IMG/VR virus record: IMGVR_UViG_3300032116_000635
Location: 1-36,658 of that record
Origin: a virus
Strand: one strand, 5' to 3'
Length of the DNA stretch: 36,658 nt
In this document: piece by piece, positions 1-36,658 of the stretch
Numbering within the stretch: position 1 is the first letter of the stretch
How the letters are laid out: each line of letters starts with the position of its first letter
The notes under the pieces: generated by a model
Told to the model about the DNA's origin: nothing
Databases searched by the model: none
The model's input: only the letters and a program-made list of their open reading frames with translations
Translations under genes and position numbers: made by a program

Positions 1-376
1 TAAAATCGGGCTATTCGCTCACGAGTATAACCCGCACAGCTTAAAATTTACGCCAAAGCTCAAGCGTGCCTTGAGTTTTAAGGCAAAATCTAAACCGCCG
101 GACTCTACATTTGCCAAATGTAGCATCCCGTTTTCCTGTAGCTTTTGACTCCCCCCAAATCCTCGCAGGCAGACGATCATACATAGCCGTGACAAGCCCC
201 TCTTCCCTTCGATGGGTAATGGGCGGCGGCCGGATCGGGGAGCGCTGGGTCGCTCGATTCACTCCGTAAAACCCGGCGTCTGTAAAGGCGCGGCCGCGCC
301 GTCCCTGCAAATCCTCCCTCTGCGTCTCCGCGCCTCTGCGGGATAACCCCCAGCGTTTGACTCCGCCCACACGGGC
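1..376. other. Left-edge region without a convincing complete gene
   Basis: The first 150 bases are clearly lower in GC than the rest. Frame 2 is open from the window edge to a TGA at 146-148, and that stop lies inside a TTTTGACTCC motif. Stops embedded in TTTGAC recur at real gene ends elsewhere (3547-3549, 5578-5580, 19781-19783), so this may be the 3' end of an upstream gene, but its 48 residues resemble nothing I recognise. A hairpin (CTCAAG 59-64 with CTTGAG 70-75) competes with another (GCCTT 68-72 with AAGGC 80-84). A repeat-like CTCTGCGTCTCCGCGCCTCT stretch lies at 318-337. In lambda-like phages the terminase gene would be expected near here; I do not see it. Confidence 0.5.
106..122. 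repeat. Perfect 17-bp palindrome, operator-like
   Basis: TACATTTG, one central C, then CAAATGTA form a perfect inverted repeat. It lies in the AT-richer left edge, upstream of the first recognised head gene. It could be a protein-binding site or a host-derived intergenic repeat. No gene product can be assigned to it. Confidence 0.6.
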
Positions 377-384: not shown

Positions 385-649
385 CCTAAAACTTTCCGGC
401 ATTAAATCCTTCCTCCGCCGCACGAAGACCACGGCGGAGCTGGAAGCCCTCGCCGCATCAACCTTCGCCAGCGCCACCGAAGAGGTCACGATTACCTCCA
501 TCGGCACCGAGGGAACATCCTCCTCCGGCCAGGTCACCATGCCCAAGTGGCTCCTCCTCGAAGCCATCGAAGACTTACTCGCTGAAGGTCCGAACGGCCG
601 CCAGCTTTTCGCCATCGCTGACCGCTCCCGCTACGGCACCGCCGTTTGA
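377..649 (+). CDS. Putative gpW-like head-completion protein
   Basis: A 90-residue protein directly upstream of the portal gene, the place lambda gives to gpW, a small head-completion protein that prepares the filled head for tail joining. It starts with a basic helix-like stretch (KLSGIKSFLRRTKT), then an Ala/Thr/Ser-rich middle and a C-terminal acidic helix (LLLEAIEDLLAEG). Length fits the gpW size class of about 60-90 residues, but I see no decisive motif, so the name rests on position. The start sits in the hairpin at 356-384. The TGA stop (647-649) is inside the next TTTGACAC motif. Confidence 0.5.
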   Translation: MESLKLSGIKSFLRRTKTTAELEALAASTFASATEEVTITSIGTEGTSSSGQVTMPKWLLLEAIEDLLAEGPNGRQLFAIADRSRYGTAV

Positions 650-667
650 CACGCCCGCCTCGGCGTG
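645..667 (+). promoter_or_regulatory. TTTGACAC motif with hairpin containing the portal GTG start
   Basis: TTTGACACGCC is followed by a perfect six-base stem, CACGCC (650-655) with GGCGTG (662-667). The portal GTG start (665-667) is the last three bases of the right arm, so it is paired in RNA. Distance from TTGACA to the start is 19 nt. The TGA of the preceding gene lies within the motif, so this is a gene-junction element. Confidence 0.55.
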
Positions 668-2410
668 CCGTCGAAAATCAAAAAATCAAGTTGGGGAGGA
701 ACCCGCCCCGGAGCAGGCCGCCCGCGCAAGCCAGACGCAAAAGCCGCCGCCTTTGAAGCCGCTCAGCCCTCGCTAAATCGCGGCCTCATCTGGGTTCCGA
801 CCACCGATCCCAAGCGCGAACTCACGGCACACACGCGCATGGAAATCCTCCGCCTCTCGCGGTGGCTCTACAACAACGCCGCGCAGGCCACCTACATCGT
901 CGAGCACTTGGCACAACGCGCCATCGGCACCGGCATTGTTGTCCAACCCAAAACCTCGAATCTCGCGTGGAACAAAAAGGTCGATCAGTATTTCGAGGAC
1001 CGCAACTGCGCCGAGGCGTGGGCATTCGATGCCGGCGCACAGGTCAATTTCTACACCGCGCAATCTCTCATCCTCCGACAGGTCGCCATCGACGGCGATT
1101 TCTTCGCGCAATTCCTCAAGACCAAAGAAGGCGCGGCCCGCGTGCGCTTCATCGGCGGCGAGTCCATCGGCGGCTCCGCAGGATACGGCAACCCGGACGA
1201 CATGACGCACGACGGCGTGACGATGGACCGCTTCGGCGCCCCCGTCGCCTACACCATCAACGCCGAAAACGGCACCCGCATCCCCGCCGAAGACATCCTC
1301 CACTTCCGCCACATTCGCCGCCACGCCCAACCGCGTGGCGTTTCGTGGTTCCACTCCGCCGTCTCCAACCTCCGCGACATCTCCGAAATCAACGGATTCG
1401 TTAAGGGCGCGTATAAGGCCGGAGCGCAAATCGGCTACATGGTTACCAGCACCGAGGTCGCCAAGATCGGCCTCGGCGCTGGCTTGAAATCCACGACCAA
1501 CGAAGTCGGCGACCTCCAGACAAGCGACCTCCCGAACGGCATCCTCCTCCCACGCCTCAAGCCAGGCGAAAAACTCGAAGCCTTCAAGAACGACATTCCC
1601 GGCCAGACCTACGAAGCCGTGATGCGCGCCCTCCGCTCGGATGTCGCCTTCGCCGTCGGCCTCCCGCCCGAGGCCATGATGGTCAATGTCGGCCTCGCAG
1701 GAACCGAGCAACGCGCCGTTTTGGAAGTCACGCAGAACTTCCTCGAGCGTCTCCAGCAGCAGATCATCGATCAGTTTTGCCGACCTTTTTACAAGTATTG
1801 GCTCTGGCACGAAATGCAGGCCGGTCGCCTCGAATACCCCGGTGACGATTGGTGGCGCCACGAATGGCTCGCACCGAAAAAGATCACGGTGGACAGCGGC
1901 CGCGACGCCCGCGCCTTCAGCGAACAACTCGACAAAGGCCACCTCTCGCCGACCCGCTATTTCAACATGCTCGGCCTCCGCGCCGAGGAGGAAGAGGAGG
2001 ATGTCATTCAGACCTACCTCCGCCGCAAAGAAAAATGCGACGCCCTCGGCCTCGATGTCGCCCAAGTCTTCCCGAACTCCCTCCGCAGCGGCCTCGCCGC
2101 GCAACAACCCGCCGAATCAAGCGACGAGGACGCGGATTCTGCCGAACCGTCCGAGGGCTCTGCGGAATTCGATATGCAAGCCAAGGAAAAACTCGACGCC
2201 GTTGGCGCAGCCGTCCGTGCCGGTGTCATCACGCCATCCGCTGAAGTCGAAAAATCCATCCGCTCCATGCTGGCACTTCCCGAAATGGGCGAGGCCGTCA
2301 TCAGCGAGTGGCAGGACAACCCGACCCGCTCGCCAATCACTCTCACCAACTCGCTCGCCGCACCCGATGCGCCAGCGCAACCCGCACCAGAAGACCCTCA
2401 ACAGCCATGA
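665..2410 (+). CDS. Portal protein, lambda gpB family (Phage_portal_2-like)
   Basis: Forms the dodecameric ring at the capsid vertex through which DNA is packaged and to which the head-tail connector binds. At 581 residues it is close to the usual 500-580 for the lambda family. Features typical of the family: a basic N-terminus, a LSRWLYNNAAQATYIVEHLA segment at about residues 60-80, IPAEDILHFRHIRR near 210-220, and an acidic, disordered-looking C-terminus from about residue 490. It starts at GTG 665 inside a hairpin. Its TGA overlaps the ATG of the protease gene (ATGA at 2407-2410), as expected for a coupled head-assembly pair. Confidence 0.93.
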   Translation: MPSKIKKSSWGGTRPGAGRPRKPDAKAAAFEAAQPSLNRGLIWVPTTDPKRELTAHTRMEILRLSRWLYNNAAQATYIVEHLAQRAIGTGIVVQPKTSNLAWNKKVDQYFEDRNCAEAWAFDAGAQVNFYTAQSLILRQVAIDGDFFAQFLKTKEGAARVRFIGGESIGGSAGYGNPDDMTHDGVTMDRFGAPVAYTINAENGTRIPAEDILHFRHIRRHAQPRGVSWFHSAVSNLRDISEINGFVKGAYKAGAQIGYMVTSTEVAKIGLGAGLKSTTNEVGDLQTSDLPNGILLPRLKPGEKLEAFKNDIPGQTYEAVMRALRSDVAFAVGLPPEAMMVNVGLAGTEQRAVLEVTQNFLERLQQQIIDQFCRPFYKYWLWHEMQAGRLEYPGDDWWRHEWLAPKKITVDSGRDARAFSEQLDKGHLSPTRYFNMLGLRAEEEEEDVIQTYLRRKEKCDALGLDVAQVFPNSLRSGLAAQQPAESSDEDADSAEPSEGSAEFDMQAKEKLDAVGAAVRAGVITPSAEVEKSIRSMLALPEMGEAVISEWQDNPTRSPITLTNSLAAPDAPAQPAPEDPQQP

Positions 2411-3549
2411 ACACACCCACAACCACCCCGAAATTCTATGCACTGGAAAAATCCGACAACGGCGAAGCAACGATCCATCTCTACGATGAAGTCGGTGCTT
2501 TCGGCTCAGGCTCAAAAGAGTTCCTCGCCGACCTCGGCAAACTCGACGGCCAACACATCCATTTGCGGATCAACTCGCCCGGTGGGTCCGTGGTTGAGGG
2601 AACGGCCATTTACAACGCCCTTCGCCGGCACAAAGGCGGGCTGACCGTTCACATCGACGCGCTCGCCGCCTCGATGGCCAGCGTCATCGCCATGTCAGGA
2701 TCGCCGGTCTATATCGCCGATAATGCTCTCTTGATGATCCACAATCCGTGGACCGTTAGCGCAGGCGACAGCGACCAGCTCCGCAAAGAAGCCGACCTCC
2801 TCGACAAGCTGAAGTCCACCCTCGTCAACGCGTATGTCCGCAAGACCGGCATGGAGCAGGACCAGATCGCCGAGATGATGGACGCCGAGACCTGGCTCGA
2901 TGCCGTCGAAGCCGTCGCCCTCGGATTCGCCGACGCCATCGAGGAAGGCGTCGCCGCCGCAGCCACCGCCACACCGGAAAGTCTCCGCGCGCGATTTGAC
3001 AGCTTCGCCAAGGGCATGACTGAAAAACCTGTCACCGAAACGCCCGAGATCGCCGAGGCTCCCGAAGCTCAAGCGCCCGTCGAGGCCACCGTCATCAGCG
3101 AAAACGCCGAGGCCCCCGCGCCCGAAGTTGTCGAAACTCCCGTCGCCGAGGAAGCACCCGAAGCCCCAGCCGCCGAGCAACCCGCCGAGGTCGTTGAGCC
3201 TCAAGCCAAAATCTCCGCCGCCGACTCGATCCTCGCCAAATTCAACGGCGCAATCGCCGAGCGCGACGCCGCCCTCGCTGAAGCCAGCGCCTACCGCGCG
3301 AAATTTGAAGCCCTCAACAGCGAAGTCGAAACCCTCCGCAGCGAACTCGCTCAGGACCGCGAAGACCTCGGCCGGTTGCAACGCTCCTTCGGCCTCTCCG
3401 CCGCCCGCGTCGTTCCCGAAATCGATCAGTCCGCAAACACCGCGAGCATCTACGACCAGTGGAAAAACGCCACCGGCGCCGAGAAGACCCGCATTTTCCG
3501 CGCGAACCGCAAAGCCCTCGAAGCCCACGCCAAGACCGCCGCGATTTGA
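2407..3549 (+). CDS. Head maturation protease (ClpP/S14-like) fused to scaffold
   Basis: 380 residues from ATG 2407; an in-frame ATG at 2308 exists but would overlap the portal gene by about 100 bases. Residues 1-210 form a ClpP-fold serine peptidase: RINSPGGSV near 54-62, nucleophile Ser89 in AASMAS, and His112 in MIHNPW. A long Pro/Glu/Ala-rich linker (about 215-300) leads to a coiled-coil scaffold-like C-terminus (about 300-360, ending near FGLSAARVVP). This combines the functions of lambda gpC and Nu3: the scaffold guides capsid assembly and the protease then removes it. The TGA stop lies in the TTTGACAC that opens the capsid leader. Confidence 0.92.
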   Translation: MNTPTTTPKFYALEKSDNGEATIHLYDEVGAFGSGSKEFLADLGKLDGQHIHLRINSPGGSVVEGTAIYNALRRHKGGLTVHIDALAASMASVIAMSGSPVYIADNALLMIHNPWTVSAGDSDQLRKEADLLDKLKSTLVNAYVRKTGMEQDQIAEMMDAETWLDAVEAVALGFADAIEEGVAAAATATPESLRARFDSFAKGMTEKPVTETPEIAEAPEAQAPVEATVISENAEAPAPEVVETPVAEEAPEAPAAEQPAEVVEPQAKISAADSILAKFNGAIAERDAALAEASAYRAKFEALNSEVETLRSELAQDREDLGRLQRSFGLSAARVVPEIDQSANTASIYDQWKNATGAEKTRIFRANRKALEAHAKTAAI

Positions 3550-3602
3550 CACCCACGCAATCCACGAAACCCAAAACCTAACCCACCAAACCACCCACTC
3601 AA
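3546..3602 (+). promoter_or_regulatory. 57-nt CA-rich leader of the capsid gene
   Basis: TTGACA (3546-3551), 17 nt, then ACCCAAAACC (3569-3578) and a G-depleted A/C tract up to ATG 3603. The same layout, with identical TTGACA-to-ATG length (57 nt), precedes the tail-tube gene, and a 54-nt version precedes the gene at 19834. No TATAAT-like -10 and no Shine-Dalgarno sequence are visible. It could be a phage-specific late promoter or an unstructured translation enhancer. Confidence 0.6.
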
Positions 3603-4508
3603 ATGGCCACAACCATCAGCTCCGAACTCAAACTGAATGTCGTCCTCGACAGCGCGCTCGTCGCACTGCGTGAGGCACTTCTCCCGCTCAACTCCTTCTC
3701 GACCGTTTATAACTCGGTCCCGCTCCAAGGCACCGACAAGATCAGTGTTCCGTTCTACCCTCTCGCCACTGACGCGACGAGCGACTTCAACGGCACCTAT
3801 TCTTTCGGCGACACAAACGCCATCAACAGCCGCGAGATCACGGTCAACAAGCGCAAGTATCAAGCGCTGAGCTTCACTAGCTCGGAACTCGCCCGCCAGC
3901 CTTATTTCAATCCTGAGCAACTCGGCTTCTTGAAAGGCCGCAAGCTCGCCGAAGACATCCTCCGTGATGTTCTTTCGGTCGTCACCCTCGCCAACTACGG
4001 CGCAGCGATCCACACCGGCGCGGCTTCCGCGTTTGATTCGGACGACATGATCACCATCAAGACCGCGCTCGACCAAGCCAAGTGGCCAAAATCCAGCCGC
4101 GTGATGATCCTCGACAACGCCTACGAAGGCGCGCTCCTCAAGGATTCCGGCATCAAGAACGCCGCCGCAGTCGGCAGCGCATCGGCCATCCAAAACGGCC
4201 GTCTCCCACAGATTGCTGGCTTCGATGTCGTCGGCACCAACCTTATCCCCGGCAACTCGCAGAACCTCGTCGGTATGGTCGCACTCCCCGAGGCGATCTT
4301 GGTTGCCTTCTCGCCCGTGCAGCCATCCCCCGGCGTCCGCAACAACCTCACTGCTTACGAAGTGGCAGTCGATCCCGAGACTGGTCTCTCCATCGAGTAT
4401 CGCAGCTGGGGCGACCCCGACACCGACACCGAGAAGAGCGTCATCGAAGTCAACTACGGCTTCGCCCTCGGCCACGCCGCCGCCCTCAAGCGTATCGTCA
4501 GCGCCTAA
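3603..4508 (+). CDS. Major capsid protein, HK97 fold
   Basis: 301 residues, directly after the protease/scaffold gene, as in most HK97/lambda-type head modules. The sequence has the flavour of the family: an N-terminal helix with VALREALLPLNSFSTV, a central helix-rich segment LAEDILRDVLSVV (about 118-130), a MILDNAYEGALL strand/helix (about 175-186), and a C-terminal Asp/Glu-rich beta part ending in FALGHAAALKRIVSA. No N-terminal delta domain is seen, consistent with a separate scaffold being fused to the protease instead. It has a 57-nt G-poor leader shared with two other late genes and is followed by one small gene and a strong terminator, suggesting high expression. Confidence 0.88.
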   Translation: MATTISSELKLNVVLDSALVALREALLPLNSFSTVYNSVPLQGTDKISVPFYPLATDATSDFNGTYSFGDTNAINSREITVNKRKYQALSFTSSELARQPYFNPEQLGFLKGRKLAEDILRDVLSVVTLANYGAAIHTGAASAFDSDDMITIKTALDQAKWPKSSRVMILDNAYEGALLKDSGIKNAAAVGSASAIQNGRLPQIAGFDVVGTNLIPGNSQNLVGMVALPEAILVAFSPVQPSPGVRNNLTAYEVAVDPETGLSIEYRSWGDPDTDTEKSVIEVNYGFALGHAAALKRIVSA

Positions 4509-4791: not shown

Positions 4792-4832
4792 AACGCCCCG
4801 CCGTCTCACTCCGGCGGGGCGTTCTGCTTTTT
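4792..4832 (+). terminator. Strong intrinsic terminator after the capsid pair
   Basis: A perfect 12-bp stem, AACGCCCCGCCG (4792-4803) with CGGCGGGGCGTT (4812-4823), an 8-nt loop, then CTGC and five T (4828-4832). The T-run is also the start of the next TTTTTGACACGC motif. It separates the head-shell transcription unit from the connector and tail genes. Confidence 0.9.
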
Positions 4833-4854
4833 GACACGCAGCGAGAAGCGTGTC
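4829..4854 (+). promoter_or_regulatory. TTTGACAC motif with hairpin containing a GTG start
   Basis: Perfect 7-bp inverted repeat GACACGC (4833-4839) and GCGTGTC (4848-4854), 8-nt loop. The GTG start of the next gene (4850-4852) is in the right arm, 19 nt after the first T of TTGACA. It is the clearest example of the start-codon hairpin seen also at 356-384 and 645-667. Confidence 0.55.
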
Positions 4855-5176: not shown

Positions 5177-5580
5177 ACCTCGAAGTCGAGACCTCCCTCG
5201 CCGCCTGGCTCCGCGCCACGCCCGCCTTTGACGGCATCCCCGTCCACACCGGCCAGAGCAGCGACCCGATCCCAAACGACCAGCCCGTCCTCATCGTCGG
5301 AGTCGAGTCCACCGAAGCCATCGTGCGCGGCCTCTACAAAGTCACCGCCTCGATCGTCCTCGCCACCCCGAGCGTCGTCGAGGCCGCGCTCGAGACCCAC
5401 GCCGCCCTCGCCTCGTCGCTCAAAACCTCCCTCCTCGCCGCCGACCAACTCGCCGCCTCCTTCGCCGCGCCGCTCACCCTCGCCGGCGCCGACCTCCGCA
5501 CATGGTCCGAGAGCCAGCAAGACGGCCGCTGGATCACCACCGCCGCGCTGACCCTCGGCCTCGTCGAGTCCGCGATTTGA
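5173..5580 (+). CDS. Putative tail terminator / tail completion protein
   Basis: 135 residues, start ATG 5173 preceded by a GGAGG-type Shine-Dalgarno sequence 8-9 bases upstream. Pattern: helix-rich N-terminus (EVETSLAAWLRATPAF), IPNDQPVLIVGV at about 33-44, Ala-rich helix SVVEAALETHAALASSLKT (about 67-85), and a C-terminal strand with ITTAALTLGLVES. Small proteins with this organisation lie between the connector and tail tube in siphoviruses (lambda gpU/gpZ region, DUF3168-like group) and cap the tail tube. The TGA stop is inside the TTTGACAC that opens the tail-tube leader. Confidence 0.55.
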   Translation: MNLEVETSLAAWLRATPAFDGIPVHTGQSSDPIPNDQPVLIVGVESTEAIVRGLYKVTASIVLATPSVVEAALETHAALASSLKTSLLAADQLAASFAAPLTLAGADLRTWSESQQDGRWITTAALTLGLVESAI

Positions 5581-5633
5581 CACCCGCCACCTCTCCGTAA
5601 CCCGCAACCCAACCACCACCACCACTCAATAAC
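5577..5633 (+). promoter_or_regulatory. 57-nt CA-rich leader of the tail-tube gene
   Basis: TTGACA (5577-5582), 17 nt, then ACCCGCAACCC (5600-5610) and an ACC/CA tract to ATG 5634. Spacing from TTGACA to ATG is 57 nt, identical to the capsid leader, although the intervening bases differ. No -10 hexamer or Shine-Dalgarno sequence is seen. Confidence 0.6.
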
Positions 5634-11060: not shown

Positions 11061-11084
11061 TTTGACATGGAAGAATAAGCAATG
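11061..11084 (+). promoter_or_regulatory. TTTGACATG motif before the giant Ig protein
   Basis: TTTGACATG lies 3 nt after the TGA of the gene ending at 11058 and the ATG start (11082) follows 20 nt after the first T of TTGACA, as before the genes at 377 and 24451. Unlike the 377, 665 and 4850 sites, no strong hairpin forms. Confidence 0.45.
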
Positions 11085-16669: not shown

Positions 16670-16884
16670 TGCCCGGCGGCGGAGGCGGAGGCGGAGGCGG
16701 AGGCGGAGGCGGAGGCGGAGGCGGAGGCGGAGGCGGAGGCGGAGGCGGCGGAGGCGGCACACCTCCTCCACCGCCGCCACCACCCCAAAATTGCATGTGC
16801 GTCCCGCCTCCACCATCTTCAGGCCGATTCGTTCTTTCATCAAATGCCGGCACGCTGCAATGGATCGCCACGGAGGAGTGCTAA
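16669..16884 (+). CDS. Poly-Gly / poly-Pro small tail protein with TEEC ending
   Basis: 71 residues: Met-Pro, then 28 Gly, Thr, 8 Pro, a CMC-containing turn, another Pro run and a C-terminus LQWIATEEC. The Gly run is written by eleven exact GGAGGC hexamers. Its last residues share W-[LI]-x-T-E-E-C with the protein ending at 11058, so the real conserved part may be only the C-terminal 25 residues, with the Gly/Pro parts acting as a flexible or rigid spacer. Translational coupling (TAATG) and a GGAGG ribosome site support real expression. Confidence 0.6.
   Translation: MPGGGGGGGGGGGGGGGGGGGGGGGGGGGGTPPPPPPPPQNCMCVPPPPSSGRFVLSSNAGTLQWIATEEC
16681..16746 (+). repeat. GGAGGC hexanucleotide microsatellite, 11 copies
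   Basis: Eleven perfect tandem GGAGGC units, extended on both sides by GGC/GGA codons. Copy-number change keeps the frame and would lengthen or shorten the poly-Gly tract by two residues per unit. The following CCT/CCG/CCA tract (16762-16785) is partly complementary, so a large hairpin is possible. Confidence 0.95.
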
Positions 16885-17976: not shown

Positions 17977-18003
17977 TTTGACACCCGCCGCTCGCGTAGC
18001 GGC
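17977..18003 (+). promoter_or_regulatory. TTTGACAC motif and hairpin flush with a start codon
   Basis: TTTGACACCC directly follows the TGA of the gene ending at 17976. A perfect hairpin GCCGCT (17987-17992) / AGCGGC (17998-18003) then abuts ATG 18004. TTGACA to ATG is 26 nt, slightly longer than in related sites, because the start codon is just outside the hairpin. Confidence 0.55.
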
Positions 18004-19559: not shown

Positions 19560-19783
19560 CAAAAATCACCGAGAGTAACATTCGCCAGCCACTGGACCTG
19601 TCGTCCTTCGACCTCACGCTCCCCGCCGTCATCGTCGAATACCCAACGCGCTCGAGCTTCCCGAGCATCGGAAAAGCGGACCGTTTGTATCAGGCGATGG
19701 ACGAGGGAATGCCCTACCGCTGGTCGCCCTCCGCCAGCAGCTACGCCCTCATGATCCCGGTCATCGACGCCGGCGCTTTTTGA
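19556..19783 (+). CDS. Small fibre-associated hypothetical protein
   Basis: 75 residues, ATGA-coupled to the fibre gene. Sequence is compact with LPAVIVEYPTRSSFPSIGKA (about 22-41) and SASSYALMIPVIDAGAF at the C-terminus. No family recognised. The position suggests a fibre accessory or chaperone-like role. Its TGA stop is inside the TTTTTGACAC motif that opens the next leader. Confidence 0.55.
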   Translation: MTKITESNIRQPLDLSSFDLTLPAVIVEYPTRSSFPSIGKADRLYQAMDEGMPYRWSPSASSYALMIPVIDAGAF

Positions 19784-19833
19784 CACTCACCCCCCAAACG
19801 AAACCCACAACCACCACCACCTAAAAAAATCAT
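19780..19833 (+). promoter_or_regulatory. 54-nt CA-rich leader of the coiled-coil fibre gene
   Basis: TTGACA (19780-19785), 17 nt, ACCCACAACC (19803-19812), then an ACC-rich and A-rich tract to ATG 19834. Same TTGACA-N17-ACCC layout as the leaders at 3546 and 5577, three nucleotides shorter. It suggests this fibre gene is expressed like the capsid and tail tube. Confidence 0.6.
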
Positions 19834-24429: not shown

Positions 24430-24453
24430 TTTGACATGCGGAGAAGGGAGATG
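24430..24453 (+). promoter_or_regulatory. TTTGACATG motif before the holin-like gene
   Basis: TTTGACATG at 24430-24438; ATG 24451 follows 20 nt after the first T of TTGACA, as at 357/377 and 11062/11082. The ATG within the motif itself (24436) is in the same frame, so either start is possible. Confidence 0.4.
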
Positions 24454-26696: not shown

Positions 26697-26959
26697 AAAG
26701 CGCCTGGGCGAAATACTACGCGAGCACGAAGGAAGATAAATTAAGTGCTTACGAAGCCAAAGGGTGGAAGACTATTTCCACTATGGCCACCGAAACAAAC
26801 CAATCGCCCAACACGGTTCAGAGTCAGATGAGAAACCTCACCTCCCAAAACATTTTTGATAAAAAAATCATAAGGAGCATGTCTGCCAATGGCGTCCGGG
26901 ATGTGGCAATTTTTAGGCCAGCGAGCCAACGCCGTGCCAACAGCAACGCAAACCCATGA
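26654..26959 (+). CDS. Small HTH-like protein next to attP
   Basis: 101 residues from ATG 26654, overlapping the metallophosphoesterase end by 43 bases. A likely winged-helix/HTH segment is ISTMATETNQSPNTVQSQMR (about 40-59). The basic C-terminus (PASQRRANSNANP) is encoded by the left direct repeat of the attachment region (26921-26942). It could be a DNA-binding accessory factor, but no family is recognised. Confidence 0.55.
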   Translation: MRTKKRPALASPDLKSAWAKYYASTKEDKLSAYEAKGWKTISTMATETNQSPNTVQSQMRNLTSQNIFDKKIIRSMSANGVRDVAIFRPASQRRANSNANP

Positions 26960-26975
26960 TAATCAAAGGCCGATT

Positions 26976-27024
26976 TTTGATTCGTAATCGATAGGTCACG
27001 AGTTCGAGTCTCGTCATCGGCTCC
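26976..27024 (+). other. attP core: 3' half of tRNA-Thr(CGU)
   Basis: The anticodon loop TTCGTAA (26981-26987, anticodon CGT) sits in a weak stem. A complete T arm follows: ACGAG (26998-27002), loop TTCGAGT, CTCGT (27010-27014). Next are CATCGGC as the acceptor 3' strand and TCC (27015-27024). No 5' acceptor or D arm is present, so it is a fragment, not a tRNA gene. Integration into a host tRNA-Thr would restore that gene. The integrase starts about 87 bp downstream. Confidence 0.75.
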
Positions 27025-27035
27025 CTTCTTAAATG

Positions 27036-27110: not shown

Positions 27111-28139
27111 ATGCCTAAACGAGCCAACATCGTGCCAACAGTGCCAACAGCCCTAGCAACGCAGAGCAACACAAGCACCGTGTCGATTCAGCGGGCGAGC
27201 GTGCGGGGGGTGGAAAAGTTCTGCGTGTGGACGAAAATTTCGGGGAAGCGGAAGCGGGCTTTCTTTGATGAGGCGGTGGCTGCGGTGGCTTATCGCGATC
27301 AGATTTTGCGGCAGCTCCAGGCGAAGGGCACGGAGTCGTTTGCCGAGTCGGGCAAGACGGTCTCGGAGGGGTGGCGCGAATTTCAGATGCTCCGGCTACC
27401 GAAGCTCCGAGGGAGTAATGCGCGGCTGGTGTGCTGGTGGATCGGCCACTATGTCGAGGCTCAGGGGCGGATGCCGCTGGCGGCGGTTTCACCTCGGGAC
27501 ATCGATGCGTTTCTGGCGCGGAAGGAGTGGAGTGGCACGACGCGGCAGCAGGGCTTCGTTTATCTTCGCCTCTTTTTCAACTGGCTGGTGCGATACGAGC
27601 ATCTGGACCGCTCGCCGGTTCAGCGGGCGGAGAGGCCGCAGGCGGCGCCGGTCCACCATCTCTTGACGGTTCCGCAGGTGCGGCGGTTGCTGGAGCTGAC
27701 GGCAGGCGATGACAGGATGCGGGCGTGGCTGGTTCTGGGAGTCTTTGGGGGGATGCGAATCTCGGAGGTGGGGCGGGCATTGCCGGAGCATATCGAGGAG
27801 ACGGAGATCTTCGTGCCGCAAACCAAGTCCACCGATCCAGATCCTCGGCCGCGCTTCGTTCCGATCCTGCCGGCGCTCAAGCGGCACCTTCCGAAGAAAT
27901 GGGACTGCCTCGATGAGGATCACATCAAGCGGGCGCGCACGGCGCTGGCTTTAGAAATGAACTGGGACGAGTGGCCGCAGAATTGTCTGCGTCATACGGC
28001 GGCCTCGATGCACTACGCGGCTTGGCAGGATGCGGGGAAGACGGCTTACTATCTAGGTCATTCCTCGCCAAAGATGGTTGGAGAACGATATGCGCGAGCG
28101 GTGCGGGGAAAAGAGGCAAAGGCTTTTTGGGCGCTTTAG
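27111..28139 (+). CDS. Tyrosine recombinase (phage integrase)
   Basis: 342 residues. N-terminal arm-binding-like part about 30-100, core-binding SAM-like domain about 85-170, and catalytic domain from about 185. Catalytic set: Arg216 in GGMRISEV, Lys239 in QTKS, Arg294 in NCLRHTAAS, His317 in LGHSSPKM, and Tyr327 in ERYARA. The first position of the HxxR box is Asn291 rather than His. It performs site-specific integration/excision at the neighbouring attP. Codons and strand composition (G-rich) differ clearly from the C-rich late genes upstream. No close Shine-Dalgarno sequence. Confidence 0.93.
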   Translation: MPKRANIVPTVPTALATQSNTSTVSIQRASVRGVEKFCVWTKISGKRKRAFFDEAVAAVAYRDQILRQLQAKGTESFAESGKTVSEGWREFQMLRLPKLRGSNARLVCWWIGHYVEAQGRMPLAAVSPRDIDAFLARKEWSGTTRQQGFVYLRLFFNWLVRYEHLDRSPVQRAERPQAAPVHHLLTVPQVRRLLELTAGDDRMRAWLVLGVFGGMRISEVGRALPEHIEETEIFVPQTKSTDPDPRPRFVPILPALKRHLPKKWDCLDEDHIKRARTALALEMNWDEWPQNCLRHTAASMHYAAWQDAGKTAYYLGHSSPKMVGERYARAVRGKEAKAFWAL

Positions 28140-28593: not shown

Positions 28594-28755
28594 ATGCAAA
28601 GCGCATATGTGAAAACAAGCCTGAGCCTGCCGACAGACCTCTTCGAGTATCTGAAGGACAAGGCGGAAAAAAATGGGGGCACGCCGATCAGTCGGTTGGT
28701 CGCCCAAGCGATCAAAAAGCAAAAAGACAACGAGGGACGGAGGGCGCGGAAATGA
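28594..28755 (+). CDS. Small ribbon-helix-helix regulator (Cro-like role)
   Basis: 53 residues. The strand VKTSLSLPTDLFEYLKDKA (about 6-24) and helix PISRLVAQAIKKQK (about 31-44) are the Arc/CopG-type fold. It starts directly at the end of a repeated CGGTAGCACC element. Opposing the - strand RHH gene, it would serve as the second regulator of the switch. ATGA-coupled with the excisionase-like gene (28752-28755). Confidence 0.75.
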   Translation: MQSAYVKTSLSLPTDLFEYLKDKAEKNGGTPISRLVAQAIKKQKDNEGRRARK

Positions 28756-28958
28756 TCACCGTTGAGGAACTCGCCGAGGCCATCCACCTCGCACCCTTCA
28801 CCGTTCGGAAATACGCACGGCAAAATATCATCCCGGCGTTCAAGGTGGGCCGCGACTGGCGGTTTAGGTCGCTGGAAGAGGTCACGAATTCGCTGGCCTG
28901 CACCAAGGGGAACAAAGCAGCCAAAGCCGCCGCGATGGCGATGAGGAGGGCCGCGTGA
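28752..28958 (+). CDS. Excisionase-like HTH protein
   Basis: 68 residues. VEELAEAIHLAPFTVRKYAR (about 4-23) followed by IIPAFKVGRDWRFRSLEEV (about 26-44) is the MerR/excisionase-type HTH_17 pattern. It may act as directionality factor for the integrase or as a regulator. GGAGG-type Shine-Dalgarno sequence before the start; its TGA overlaps the next ATG (28956-28960). Confidence 0.75.
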   Translation: MITVEELAEAIHLAPFTVRKYARQNIIPAFKVGRDWRFRSLEEVTNSLACTKGNKAAKAAAMAMRRAA

Positions 28959-29107
28959 TGAATCTCTACCTCTGCACCGCTAACGGAGTTTTCGGACCCT
29001 TCGGCGATTATGTTCACGCCAGCACGCCGGCCGAGGCGCGCTGGAAATTCTGGCGCTCATTCAAGGTGACGCCGTTTTCGGTGGTCTTCGAGAGGAGGGC
29101 GAAGTGA
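28958..29107 (+). CDS. Very small hypothetical protein (49 aa)
   Basis: A 49-residue product starting NLYLCTANGVFGPFGDYVH, ending VVFERRAK. It is preceded by GGAGG (within GAGGAGGG) and coupled to the previous stop (TGATG). It overlaps the next start by one base (TGATG at 29105-29109). No family recognised. The chain of tightly overlapping small ORFs argues that it is expressed. Confidence 0.55.
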   Translation: MNLYLCTANGVFGPFGDYVHASTPAEARWKFWRSFKVTPFSVVFERRAK

Positions 29108-29214
29108 TGGACTACGAGACGACACTCCGCTGCCTGGGCTACGCGCTCGACTTTATTCAGATCGTAACCGTGCCGGTCCTGTTGGCGGCACTCACATGGA
29201 GGCTCGCACGATGA
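29107..29214 (+). CDS. Tiny membrane peptide (35 aa)
   Basis: 35 residues with one hydrophobic stretch (ALDFIQIVTVPVLLAALTW, about 13-31) and a basic C-terminus (RLAR), i.e. a likely single-pass membrane peptide. GGAGGG lies about ten bases before its ATG, and it overlaps the next gene by ATGA. Function unknown; such peptides may modulate the host membrane or superinfection. Confidence 0.5.
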   Translation: MDYETTLRCLGYALDFIQIVTVPVLLAALTWRLAR

Positions 29215-29399
29215 GCGAGAAAACCTACCAGCTCACTCCCTTGGGTCTTTTTACCACGCACATCGGCGACGAAGCCCAAGCAAAAAAGGTCGCCGACGCC
29301 GTTGAACTTTACATGCGCCGAAGCGGGGTCGGGATGGCCATCGATAAAAACCGACTGGCTTTTGTCGAAATGGAACCCGTCGAGGAGGTCGTTCGATGA
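29211..29399 (+). CDS. Small hypothetical protein (62 aa)
   Basis: 62 residues from ATG 29211; the upstream in-frame ATG 29196 is inside the preceding gene. GGAGG (29198-29202) eight bases upstream supports the start. The sequence is amphipathic with HIGDEAQAKKVADAVELYM (about 17-35) as a probable helix. ATGA overlaps at both ends place it in the small-gene operon. Function unknown. Confidence 0.6.
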   Translation: MSEKTYQLTPLGLFTTHIGDEAQAKKVADAVELYMRRSGVGMAIDKNRLAFVEMEPVEEVVR

Positions 29400-29587
29400 C
29401 CGCCTGGCTTTCCGTGGAGGATCAAATGCCGGACTCGGACACCGATGTCATTGTGGCGGCTGAGGATGGTCATGTTGAGGCTGGGTTTCACGATGGCCGC
29501 GTCTGGCGGTGGCTGAACGCCTGCCGAGTCGAGCCAGACATTACGCACTGGATGCCGTTTCCCAACCCACCGGAGGACGCACGATGA
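29396..29587 (+). CDS. DUF551-like small protein
   Basis: 63 residues. The pattern WLSVEDQMPDSDTDVIVA ... GFHDGRVWRWLNA ... THWMPFPNPPEDAR matches the layout of DUF551 proteins (an N-terminal W-x-x-V-x-D-x-x-P and a C-terminal HW-x-P-x-P-x-P-P). Function of the family is not known. GGAGG 29384-29388 is seven bases upstream of the ATG; ATGA overlap with the next gene. Confidence 0.75.
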   Translation: MTAWLSVEDQMPDSDTDVIVAAEDGHVEAGFHDGRVWRWLNACRVEPDITHWMPFPNPPEDAR

Positions 29588-29745
29588 GCGCCTTGGAGGG
29601 ATTCATCTTGGCCCTGGTGACGCTCGGGTCGGTTTTCGCCGCTTACTGGAGCGGCCAGCAGACGATTTTGAACCGCTTCCGCGACATGGAGCAACGCCGC
29701 AAGGAACGCGAGCGCCGGTGGAGGGAATTCGATGACCAGGACTGA
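29584..29745 (+). CDS. Small membrane protein (53 aa)
   Basis: 53 residues from ATG 29584: FILALVTLGSVFAAYWSG (about 7-24) is a likely membrane span, followed by a highly charged tail (RFRDMEQRRKERERRWREF). Preceded by GGAGG in GGAGGACGC and coupled by ATGA to the DUF551-like gene. Function unknown. Confidence 0.6.
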   Translation: MSALEGFILALVTLGSVFAAYWSGQQTILNRFRDMEQRRKERERRWREFDDQD

Positions 29746-29750
29746 GCGCC

Positions 29751-29942
29751 ATGGATCTCATCGAAAACGCCTCCGTGGACTCGAGCTTTTGCCACCTCTG
29801 CACGGCCGAGGGCAAGACCGTGGTGGCGCACCTCGTGGACAAAGACCTCGGGCCGCTCTGCGTGGACTGCTTCGCGGCGGCGCTCCGAGCCGAGACCGAG
29901 CTTCGGTGGAGCTGCCTGACTTACTCACCGTCGGACGAATGA
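29751..29942 (+). CDS. Two-CxxC small zinc-finger-like protein
   Basis: 63 residues. FCHLCTAEGKTV (about 13-24) and PLCVDCFAA (about 35-43) form two CxxC pairs, spaced like a treble-clef or ribbon zinc site. Acidic ends. Could bind DNA, RNA or protein; no family name assignable. Last gene of the small-gene cluster, five bases after the preceding stop. Confidence 0.6.
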   Translation: MDLIENASVDSSFCHLCTAEGKTVVAHLVDKDLGPLCVDCFAAALRAETELRWSCLTYSPSDE

Positions 29943-33265: not shown

Positions 33266-33540
33266 TTTTTCAGTTTTTGGCGCGGCGAGGCGGGGCGAGG
33301 CGCGGCGGGGCGTGGCGGGGCGCGGCGGGGCGGGGCGCGGCGTGGCCGAGCTGGGCGTGGCAAGGCAAACACACTGCATCCTTTGGGGTGCAGCAGTTTG
33401 CCAAGGCGGGGCGCGGCGGGGCGGGGCTGGGCATGGCGCGGCGGGGCTGGGCGCGGCATGGCTTGGCAAGGCAAACACACGGCGCTTCACGGAGCGCCGC
33501 AGCTTGCCAATGCAAGAAAACCAAAAACTAAACAAACCAA
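33266..33540. other. Noncoding interval dominated by the pentamer/hairpin element
   Basis: All six frames look open across parts of this interval simply because GGCNN repeats lack stops. The small ORFs here overlap each other and shift with the period-5 repeat, so I call none. The only clear content is the duplicated element (33279-33510) and an A-rich stretch up to ATG 33541. Confidence 0.8.
33279..33510. repeat. Two tandem [GGCNN]n - ACACAC - hairpin - GCAGYTTGCCAA modules
   Basis: Module 1 (33279-33404) has 18 near-perfect GGCNN pentamers, ACACAC, an 18-nt hairpin (33375-33392), then GCAGTTTGCC and AA. Module 2 (33405-33510) has 14 pentamers, ACACAC, an unrelated-sequence 18-nt hairpin (33481-33498), then GCAGCTTGCCAA. 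Both hairpins have 7 pairs and a 4-nt loop. GGCAAAC (33364-33370) pairs with GTTTGCC (33396-33402); in module 2 TTGGCAAG (33463-33470) pairs with CTTGCCAA (33503-33510). Sequence differs but structure is kept. Extreme G>C strand bias. Confidence 0.85.
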
Positions 33541-35888: not shown

Positions 35889-36118
35889 CCAAGAACGCCG
35901 ACCATGACTACGGCTACCGCGCGCTGGCCGCTCGGATCATACTCGACGCCTACGAGGACATCGACCGAAAGACCGACTACAAAAGCCAATACGCCACCAT
36001 GGTCGCGCAGGATGCCAAAGACAGCGCGGTCCGGTTTTTCAAAAGCCCTTGGTTTTTAGAAATCGCCGAGGGCTTAAAACTCTCCGGACCCAAAATCAAA
36101 ACCGCCGCATTAAAATGA
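35885..36118 (+). CDS. Small hypothetical protein (77 aa)
   Basis: 77 residues from ATG 35885 with a GGAGG sequence about ten bases upstream. Sequence: YRALAARIILDAYEDIDR (about 11-28) and AVRFFKSPWFLEIAEGLKL (about 47-65) suggest two helices. No family recognised. ATGA coupling with both neighbours. Probably in the replication operon. Confidence 0.6.
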   Translation: MTKNADHDYGYRALAARIILDAYEDIDRKTDYKSQYATMVAQDAKDSAVRFFKSPWFLEIAEGLKLSGPKIKTAALK

Positions 36119-36654
36119 ACCCACACGCCCACCCAACATTTCCAACCGAGGCCGAAAGGCTCCACGCGGCCGGTGCGGTTTACCATCACGACTACGCGGG
36201 CGAGATCGACACCGAGGAGGAGATCCTTGCCGACATGTTAGGCGTCACGCCCAGGCAGGCGAGGGGAGTGATGGAGCACACTGAGGCCGAGGTCCGGCGC
36301 TCGCAATCGCTCATCCTCGGCAAAGTGGTCGGCATGCTCCTCGAGACGAGCAACCTGCCGGTTATGGCCCACGCGCTGGCATTCGCGGCCGGCCTCGATC
36401 AGCTCAATGGCAAACGCTCCCAGGCTGAAGTCGCGCGGGAGTTGGGCGTTACCCGCGCGCTGGTCAGCCATTATGTCATTGGGGTGCGAGATGTCCTAAG
36501 CGGCAAGCGTGAGACATTCGACTGCACCAAATTCCGCAAATCCAATTCCTCCCGAAAGACCTTTCGAGACAAGGCGCTGTCGCCATTCCTCGAAGCCAAG
36601 CGCGCGGCTATGGCACGCAAGAAACAACAAACACCAAACACCACATGCAACTGA
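36115..36654 (+). CDS. HTH regulator, sigma/terminase-small-like
   Basis: 179 residues from ATG 36115 (ATGA). N-terminal His/Ala-rich stretch, then a helix-rich domain. GKRSQAEVARELGVTRALVS (about 101-120) is a clear helix-turn-helix. ITE-like acidic N-terminus (IDTEEEILADMLGVTPRQAR, about 31-50) is a second HTH-like segment. Such double-HTH proteins precede terminase large genes or act as late regulators. It is the last complete gene of the window, so a terminase gene might follow. Confidence 0.65.
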   Translation: MNPHAHPTFPTEAERLHAAGAVYHHDYAGEIDTEEEILADMLGVTPRQARGVMEHTEAEVRRSQSLILGKVVGMLLETSNLPVMAHALAFAAGLDQLNGKRSQAEVARELGVTRALVSHYVIGVRDVLSGKRETFDCTKFRKSNSSRKTFRDKALSPFLEAKRAAMARKKQQTPNTTCN

Positions 36655-36658
36655 TCGA
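36645..36658 (+). CDS. Possible start of the next gene (truncated by window end)
   Basis: ATG CAA CTG ATC at 36645 overlaps the last codons of the HTH gene and stays open to the window edge. Only four to five codons are visible. Overlapping starts are common in this genome, which is the only support. Confidence 0.25.

Follow-up and report, generated by a model that had tools for sequence, protein, structure and literature searches.

The stretch of DNA analysed here, a 36,658-base IMG/VR virus record classed linear (hereafter the window), carries the hexamer TTTGAC at a short, recurring distance ahead of its late genes, which raises the question of what the hexamer does there. An earlier note on this DNA had described six such sites, several with the start codon locked in a hairpin, and had favoured a translational or other role. 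From the comparisons set out below, we consider it probable that this phage group has a late-promoter element of its own in TTTGAC (core TTGAC, often TTTGACAC), with transcripts that would start about 20 nt downstream and yield mRNAs that are leaderless or carry an AC-rich leader.

No near match to the window DNA was found among GenBank phage records. Relatives are abundant in IMG/VR, and about 230 related loci were compared, the first 129 of which comprise 1.65 Mb and are partly redundant. Because two relatives sit in Verrucomicrobia MAGs, the host is probably a freshwater verrucomicrobium, and the phages would form a large, uncultured, Verrucomicrobia-associated group from lakes. The window encodes a portal (665-2410, + strand), a ClpP-like head maturation protease (2407-3549), the major capsid protein (MCP, 3603-4508), tail genes and replication genes including DnaB, together with an integrase-like gene (27111-28139) assigned on the basis of position and relatives only.

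TTTGAC boxes and gene starts in the window

In the window, all ten copies of TTTGACA are on the + strand, and the - strand has none. Of these copies, nine lie 6-60 nt upstream of a gene start, a zone covering 8.5% of the window (p=2e-9), and TTTGAC is placed exactly 20-21 nt upstream of a start at 6 of its 21 + strand sites (0.3% of the window, p=5e-11), both p-values resting on our own start list, which was partly chosen with the boxes in view. On both strands together TTTGAC was seen 27 times against 16.8 expected. The comparison with chance that the earlier note had proposed as a check thus shows enrichment upstream of starts.

All the boxes described here are on the + strand. The first, TTTGAC at 356..361, stands 21 nt before ATG377 of the small protein in the gpW position and is also present in relatives. 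It is followed by TTTGACAC at 645..652, 20 nt before the portal start GTG665, a box that contains the TGA stop of the gene upstream of portal. TTTGAC at 2995..3000 lies within the ClpP-like protease gene, 21 nt before an in-frame internal ATG3016, and TTTGACAC at 3545..3552 lies 58 nt before ATG3603 of the major capsid protein, from which it is separated by an unstructured AC-rich leader. At 4830..4837, TTTGACAC precedes GTG4850 of g6, a gene with a weak match to minor tail proteins, by 20 nt, and here the T run of the box merges with a rho-independent terminator. Two further TTTGACAC boxes with AC-rich leaders are found at 5576..5583, 58 nt before ATG5634 of the gene in the tail-tube position ('MTP'), and at 19779..19786, 55 nt before ATG19834 of a gene with a weak tail/adhesin match; a third, at 17977..17984, is 27 nt before ATG18004 of g21. 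TTTGACA at 11061..11067 and at 24430..24436 lies 21 nt before ATG11082 of an 1145-aa protein with Ig-like and RCC1 repeats and 21 nt before ATG24451 of a 57-aa protein of unknown function, respectively. The earlier note had missed the boxes at 2995, 3545, 5576 and 19779. Its own six positions hold at 356, 645, 11061, 17977 and 24430, the one given as 4829 being a base early (4830 is correct), and the starts ATG377, GTG665, GTG4850, ATG11082, ATG18004 and ATG24451 were all found at these boxes. The near-constant spacing it described is seen at five of them (21, 20, 20, 21 and 21 nt from the first T to the start), the distance at 17977 being 27 nt.

A further TTTGAC, at window 144-149 and likewise at L130:9104 and L131:6568, comes ahead of the box that serves the gpW-position gene. 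No gene start follows this extra copy, which is possibly a box before a non-coding RNA.

The box inside the protease gene marks a predicted nested in-frame product (3016..3549, + strand) in the scaffold position, made up of the C-terminal part of the protease; the window product showed no family match. In phage lambda, C and Nu3 form a nested pair of protease and scaffold. The window resembles this arrangement in that a head maturation protease of the ClpP-like kind (PHROG 94/133) has an in-frame internal start, the boxed ATG3016, for its C-terminal part, and differs from it in that a separate conserved box serves the internal start. Phe-Asp at this nested start was encoded by TTT GAC in 105 of 105 cases, which are related by descent, compared with 76 of 557 Phe-Asp pairs elsewhere, so that codon usage here is clearly constrained at the level of the DNA.

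Conservation among relatives and behaviour in host-like DNA

TTTGAC was found before portal in 45 of 45 homologues with a start at that place, before the nested protease start in 17/17, before g6 in 50/50, before MTP in 49/49 and before g21 in 26/26, and it precedes 45 of 52 capsid genes; the other seven have TTTGAA, TTTGAG or no similar sequence and keep the AC-rich leader. The flanks of the box diverge between homologous late genes while the box itself stays invariant. In the first 129 loci, TTTGACAC occurs 555 times in the forward and 11 times in the reverse orientation, and a DNA pattern scan added about 100 loci with the same strand bias, some of whose capsid proteins are only about 25% identical. 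The tie between TTTGAC and late-gene starts at about 20 nt, as first noticed in the window, is therefore strong there and in the relatives alike. In G029/G040, a lineage apart, starts are found at +20 and +22 of TTTGACAC. G017 uses [A/G/T]TTGAC with starts at +20 to +25, among them one that lies in frame within its protease gene; because these variants keep TTGAC, we take TTGAC to be the core. Genes in the small-terminase position of G003, G005 and G042 also carry a box, with GTG at +20/21.

Host-like DNA from the two MAGs (0.79 Mb, with crude start calls) showed no peak of starts at +20/21 of TTTGAC, and outside the prophage contigs of these MAGs TTTGACAC was as frequent as a reversed-pattern control, that is, at background level. 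The check in host DNA put forward in the earlier note accordingly found TTTGAC not linked to starts, and a host-wide signal was rejected. A general signal of Verrucomicrobia phages was also rejected, the gene starts of Akkermansia phage Moulinsart being without such boxes. In that phage (L295), another recurring motif, about AGAGACGGCGGGGA, was seen upstream of several late genes, at starts near 2808, 4684 and 15339.

A purine anchor 20 to 22 nt from the box

Start codons were mapped relative to 446 unique TTTGACA sites, with the first T of the box as +0 and open reading frames of at least 60 codons taken as genes. The results showed 154 GTG and 20 ATG starts at +20, 14 GTG and 29 ATG at +21, and no GTG and 25 ATG at +22; no accepted start fell at +19 and few fell below it. 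A group of GTG starts at +15/16 apparently stems from a GTGGCGTG-like context. Among the 446 sites not one TTG or CTG start was found at +20-22, all being ATG or GTG. The choice between these two codons also depends on distance, the GTG:ATG ratio being 168:49 at +20/21 vs 31:188 at +26-61 (p=9e-43). At sites without a start codon at +20-22, the base at +21 was a purine in 52 of 64 cases (p=2e-8) and the base at +22 was A in 66%, the 64 sites differing from one another by at least 25%. This purine anchor in startless sites argues that something at +20-22 is set by the box, with a start codon present or absent.

The simplest reading of the anchor would be that it is the transcript start. The first base of the RNA would then be a purine, 20-22 nt past the first T of the box. 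Where a GTG or ATG falls on that purine, the product would be a leaderless mRNA whose translation begins right at the 5' end and needs no Shine-Dalgarno sequence, as predicted for portal, g6, the nested scaffold and the gpW-position gene. The capsid, tail-tube and fibre genes, with start codons at a greater distance, would yield mRNAs with a short, unstructured AC-rich leader. Consistent with this, only ATG and GTG occupy the presumed 5' position, and Shine-Dalgarno runs are missing from most late genes.

Leaders, terminators and tRNA genes around the boxes

The same observations could be accommodated if the late mRNA were polycistronic and TTTGAC served in it as an initiation element for translation, recognised by the ribosome or a phage protein and standing in for the Shine-Dalgarno sequence. 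The earlier note had preferred a translational or other role, having set a promoter aside on the ground that sigma-70 geometry would place the start of transcription inside the gene. Such an element would suit the 20-21 nt spacing to the start that is fixed in many genes, the scarcity of Shine-Dalgarno runs in late genes set beside the GGAGG of several early ones, and the lack of boxes where genes overlap or are coupled. However, in other genes spacings of 26-61 nt are just as well conserved, AC-rich leaders exist without a box, and the +21 purine is held where no start codon follows. Strong terminator hairpins abut the box at 54 of 173 +20 sites, vs 4 in the control, mainly before g6 and also elsewhere. 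In five phage loci (L244, L052, L060, L224 and L054) the gene behind a terminator and a box is one for tRNA-Met, with GTC instead of a start codon at +20, and a second box lies 2 nt after the tRNA in the four of the five loci shown by the tRNA scan; these five loci are related and so represent few independent events, and their boxes could be remnants of a displaced gene start. Given the boxes at 34-61 nt, those abutting terminators and those at tRNA genes, a purely translational role fits poorly, and we regard it as unlikely. What stands of the earlier view is that the box is tied to late-gene starts and does not look like an ordinary sigma-70 promoter; the data point instead to a promoter of non-sigma-70 geometry whose transcripts would start at about +20/21, at the start codon.

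Still less probable, in our estimation, is that TTTGAC is an RNA processing site, with new 5' ends arising when a nuclease cleaves a long late transcript at the box or beyond it. The fixed distance from box to anchor would suit a cutter with a ruler, and 5' ends at +20 would equally yield leaderless mRNAs, but the anchor is outside the box, 14 nt further on, and the terminators directly upstream would leave little transcript to cut.

Several features count against the late-promoter reading itself. No conserved second promoter element was seen upstream or downstream of the box. In the +20 class the box is separated from the start by 14 nt of 78% GC, a composition that is unusual for strand opening and constitutes the main oddity for a promoter. 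The seven boxless capsid genes and the leadered genes g9 and g25, which have no box, also weigh against it. A further AC-rich leader without a box is that of g10, which together with the boxless capsid genes indicates that leader and box are separable.

Hairpins at the starts

For each site, the 30 nt from the box were folded and scored against shuffles. The z scores were -4.4 at 356, where the start codon is inside the right arm, and -3.5 at 4830, where the arms are GACACGC/GCGTGTC; they were -1.4 at 645 and -1.7 at 17977. The remaining six window sites ranged from -0.6 to +0.7, and three of them were without any structure. The hairpins that the earlier note had described as locking the start are thus borne out at 356 and 4830, weak at 645 and 17977 and missing from the other six sites, among them the capsid, tail-tube and tail-fibre genes; its statement that 11061 and 24430 lack a strong hairpin agrees with the scores. 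In the relatives, only the +20 class folded clearly better than dinucleotide shuffles (mean z -1.2; rank <=0.05 at 39% of sites); there was little or no folding excess in the +21 and long-leader classes. The folding check that had been proposed therefore gave an excess at 356, at 4830 and in the +20 class, and none at most window sites (only 2 of the 10 fold much better than shuffles).

Across relatives, variable stem positions paired in 44 of 84 cases vs 45.1 of 84 when arms were shuffled between sites. A covarying, start-enclosing stem was accordingly rejected as a common feature, there being no covariation and no such stem at most window sites. The claim that structure rather than sequence is conserved is reversed in the relatives, where TTTGAC is invariant at most homologous starts and the hairpins vary. 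The hairpins are a side effect and not a conserved part of the signal. That a start-hiding hairpin with TTTGAC in its left arm regulates translation is very improbable, since the strong folding at 356 and 4830, and the complementarity of the CAC of TTTGACAC to a GTG at +20, by which two conserved ends alone produce some pairing in that class, are set against the lack of a hairpin at six of ten window sites, arms without covariation, and a box that is conserved where the hairpin is absent.

Comparison with known promoter and leaderless systems

A sigma-70 promoter has a -35 element, TTGACA, a -10 element, TATAAT, about 17 nt downstream, and a transcript start about 35 nt after the -35 element. 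The box resembles the -35 element in its conserved TTTGACA / TTGAC core, but the place of the -10 element falls at or inside the start codon or the leader, and the logos of all classes showed no conserved -10 at 17 nt; a sigma-70 -35/-10 promoter was rejected.

A literature search for a TTTGAC or TTGAC phage motif found nothing relevant. Closer parallels to the late promoter proposed here are the late promoters of AR9 (AACA-6N-T[A/G]) and phiKZ (TATG), which show that one short box close to the transcript start can make up a phage late promoter (PMC5312081). With TTTGAC as read here, they would share the fixed spacing between the box and a purine at which the transcript starts; they also recur ahead of many late genes, in some cases inside open reading frames. 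They differ in being read by phage multisubunit RNA polymerases, none of which was recognised among the approximately 30 window proteins scanned, and AR9 5' leaders are 26-491 nt long, whereas the box-to-start distance here is about 20 nt and many mRNAs are predicted to be leaderless. In Thermus phage P23-45, middle and late promoters are of the extended -10 class, with sigma4 displaced by gp39 (PMC7403470). Late transcription there escapes the -10/-35 geometry through host polymerase and a phage factor, as would be the case here, but the P23-45 signal is an extended -10 element, and none was seen at the boxes. In mycobacteria, only ATG or GTG at the RNA 5' end starts leaderless translation, and either suffices for it (PMC4633059). 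The box sites share the use of ATG and GTG, without TTG or CTG, at a 5' end that is here presumed; the mycobacterial rule is host-wide and works with ordinary promoters, whereas here the pattern is linked to a phage-specific box.

A candidate reader of the box

Host RNA polymerase, guided by a helix-turn-helix protein of the phage, would probably be the enzyme that uses the late promoter. Among about 30 window proteins compared with Pfam and/or PHROGs, a subset of the ORFs, none could be identified as a phage sigma factor or RNA polymerase. The best candidate for the trans factor is the helix-turn-helix protein at 36115-36654 (+ strand), whose gene lies upstream of the terminase genes in relatives. 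It and the integrase are the only early genes with homologues in all six TTTGAC-rich, near-complete relatives compared, and it was found in 27 of 42 records searched, fragments included. In G017 a divergent homologue joins the profile (E 2e-4, then 2e-22), and in G029/G040 a similarly placed protein has members of this family as its best non-self hits, at E of about 0.003 only. The link to the box is thus one of co-occurrence, and it is weak for G029/G040. Pfam recognised only a helix-turn-helix in the family, with weak matches to sigma-70 region 4 in three members, and the structure model was too weak to use (mean pLDDT 62.6).

We suggest, tentatively and with more doubt than assent, that a single TTTGAC box, a phage helix-turn-helix factor and transcripts starting exactly on GTG or ATG might together make up an undescribed class of phage late promoter, giving a leaderless late programme run by the phage, with an initiator-like tRNA-Met beside the boxes in some members. 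If the late-promoter reading is true, it would provide a simple cis code for the late genes of a large uncultured group of lake phages, correct gene starts (GTG at +20), reveal hidden ones such as the nested scaffold and single out one protein as the late switch. It would also make it possible to test whether the position of a promoter dictates leaderless translation in the phylum Verrucomicrobia, some members of which have been reported to be Shine-Dalgarno-poor (PMC10783764).

Other features of the window and its relatives

Several early genes at 28594-29751 have a strong Shine-Dalgarno sequence (GGAGG). A large terminase gene, present in L130 (6849-8633), was not seen in the window, and the open reading frame cut by the window start (1-60) begins, in L130, 20 nt past a box at 5493; the record is probably incomplete or misjoined around 1-60 / 36655-36658. 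GC-rich low-complexity repeats (GGCGGA units; GGGGCGCGGC-type runs) occupy 16674-16760 and 33270-33470. A tRNA-Thr (CGT) call at 26951-27025 adjoins the integrase gene and is a likely attachment site. The tRNA-Met (CAT) genes beside late boxes lie, as oriented, at L244:8811-8883, L052:5440-5512, L060:6377-6448, L224:11900-11972 and L246:522-598. By eye, the box-side tRNA-Met genes have a 1-72 mismatch (C-U or C-A), and those of a first type have GGG/CCC in the anticodon stem; in these features they were judged initiator-like.
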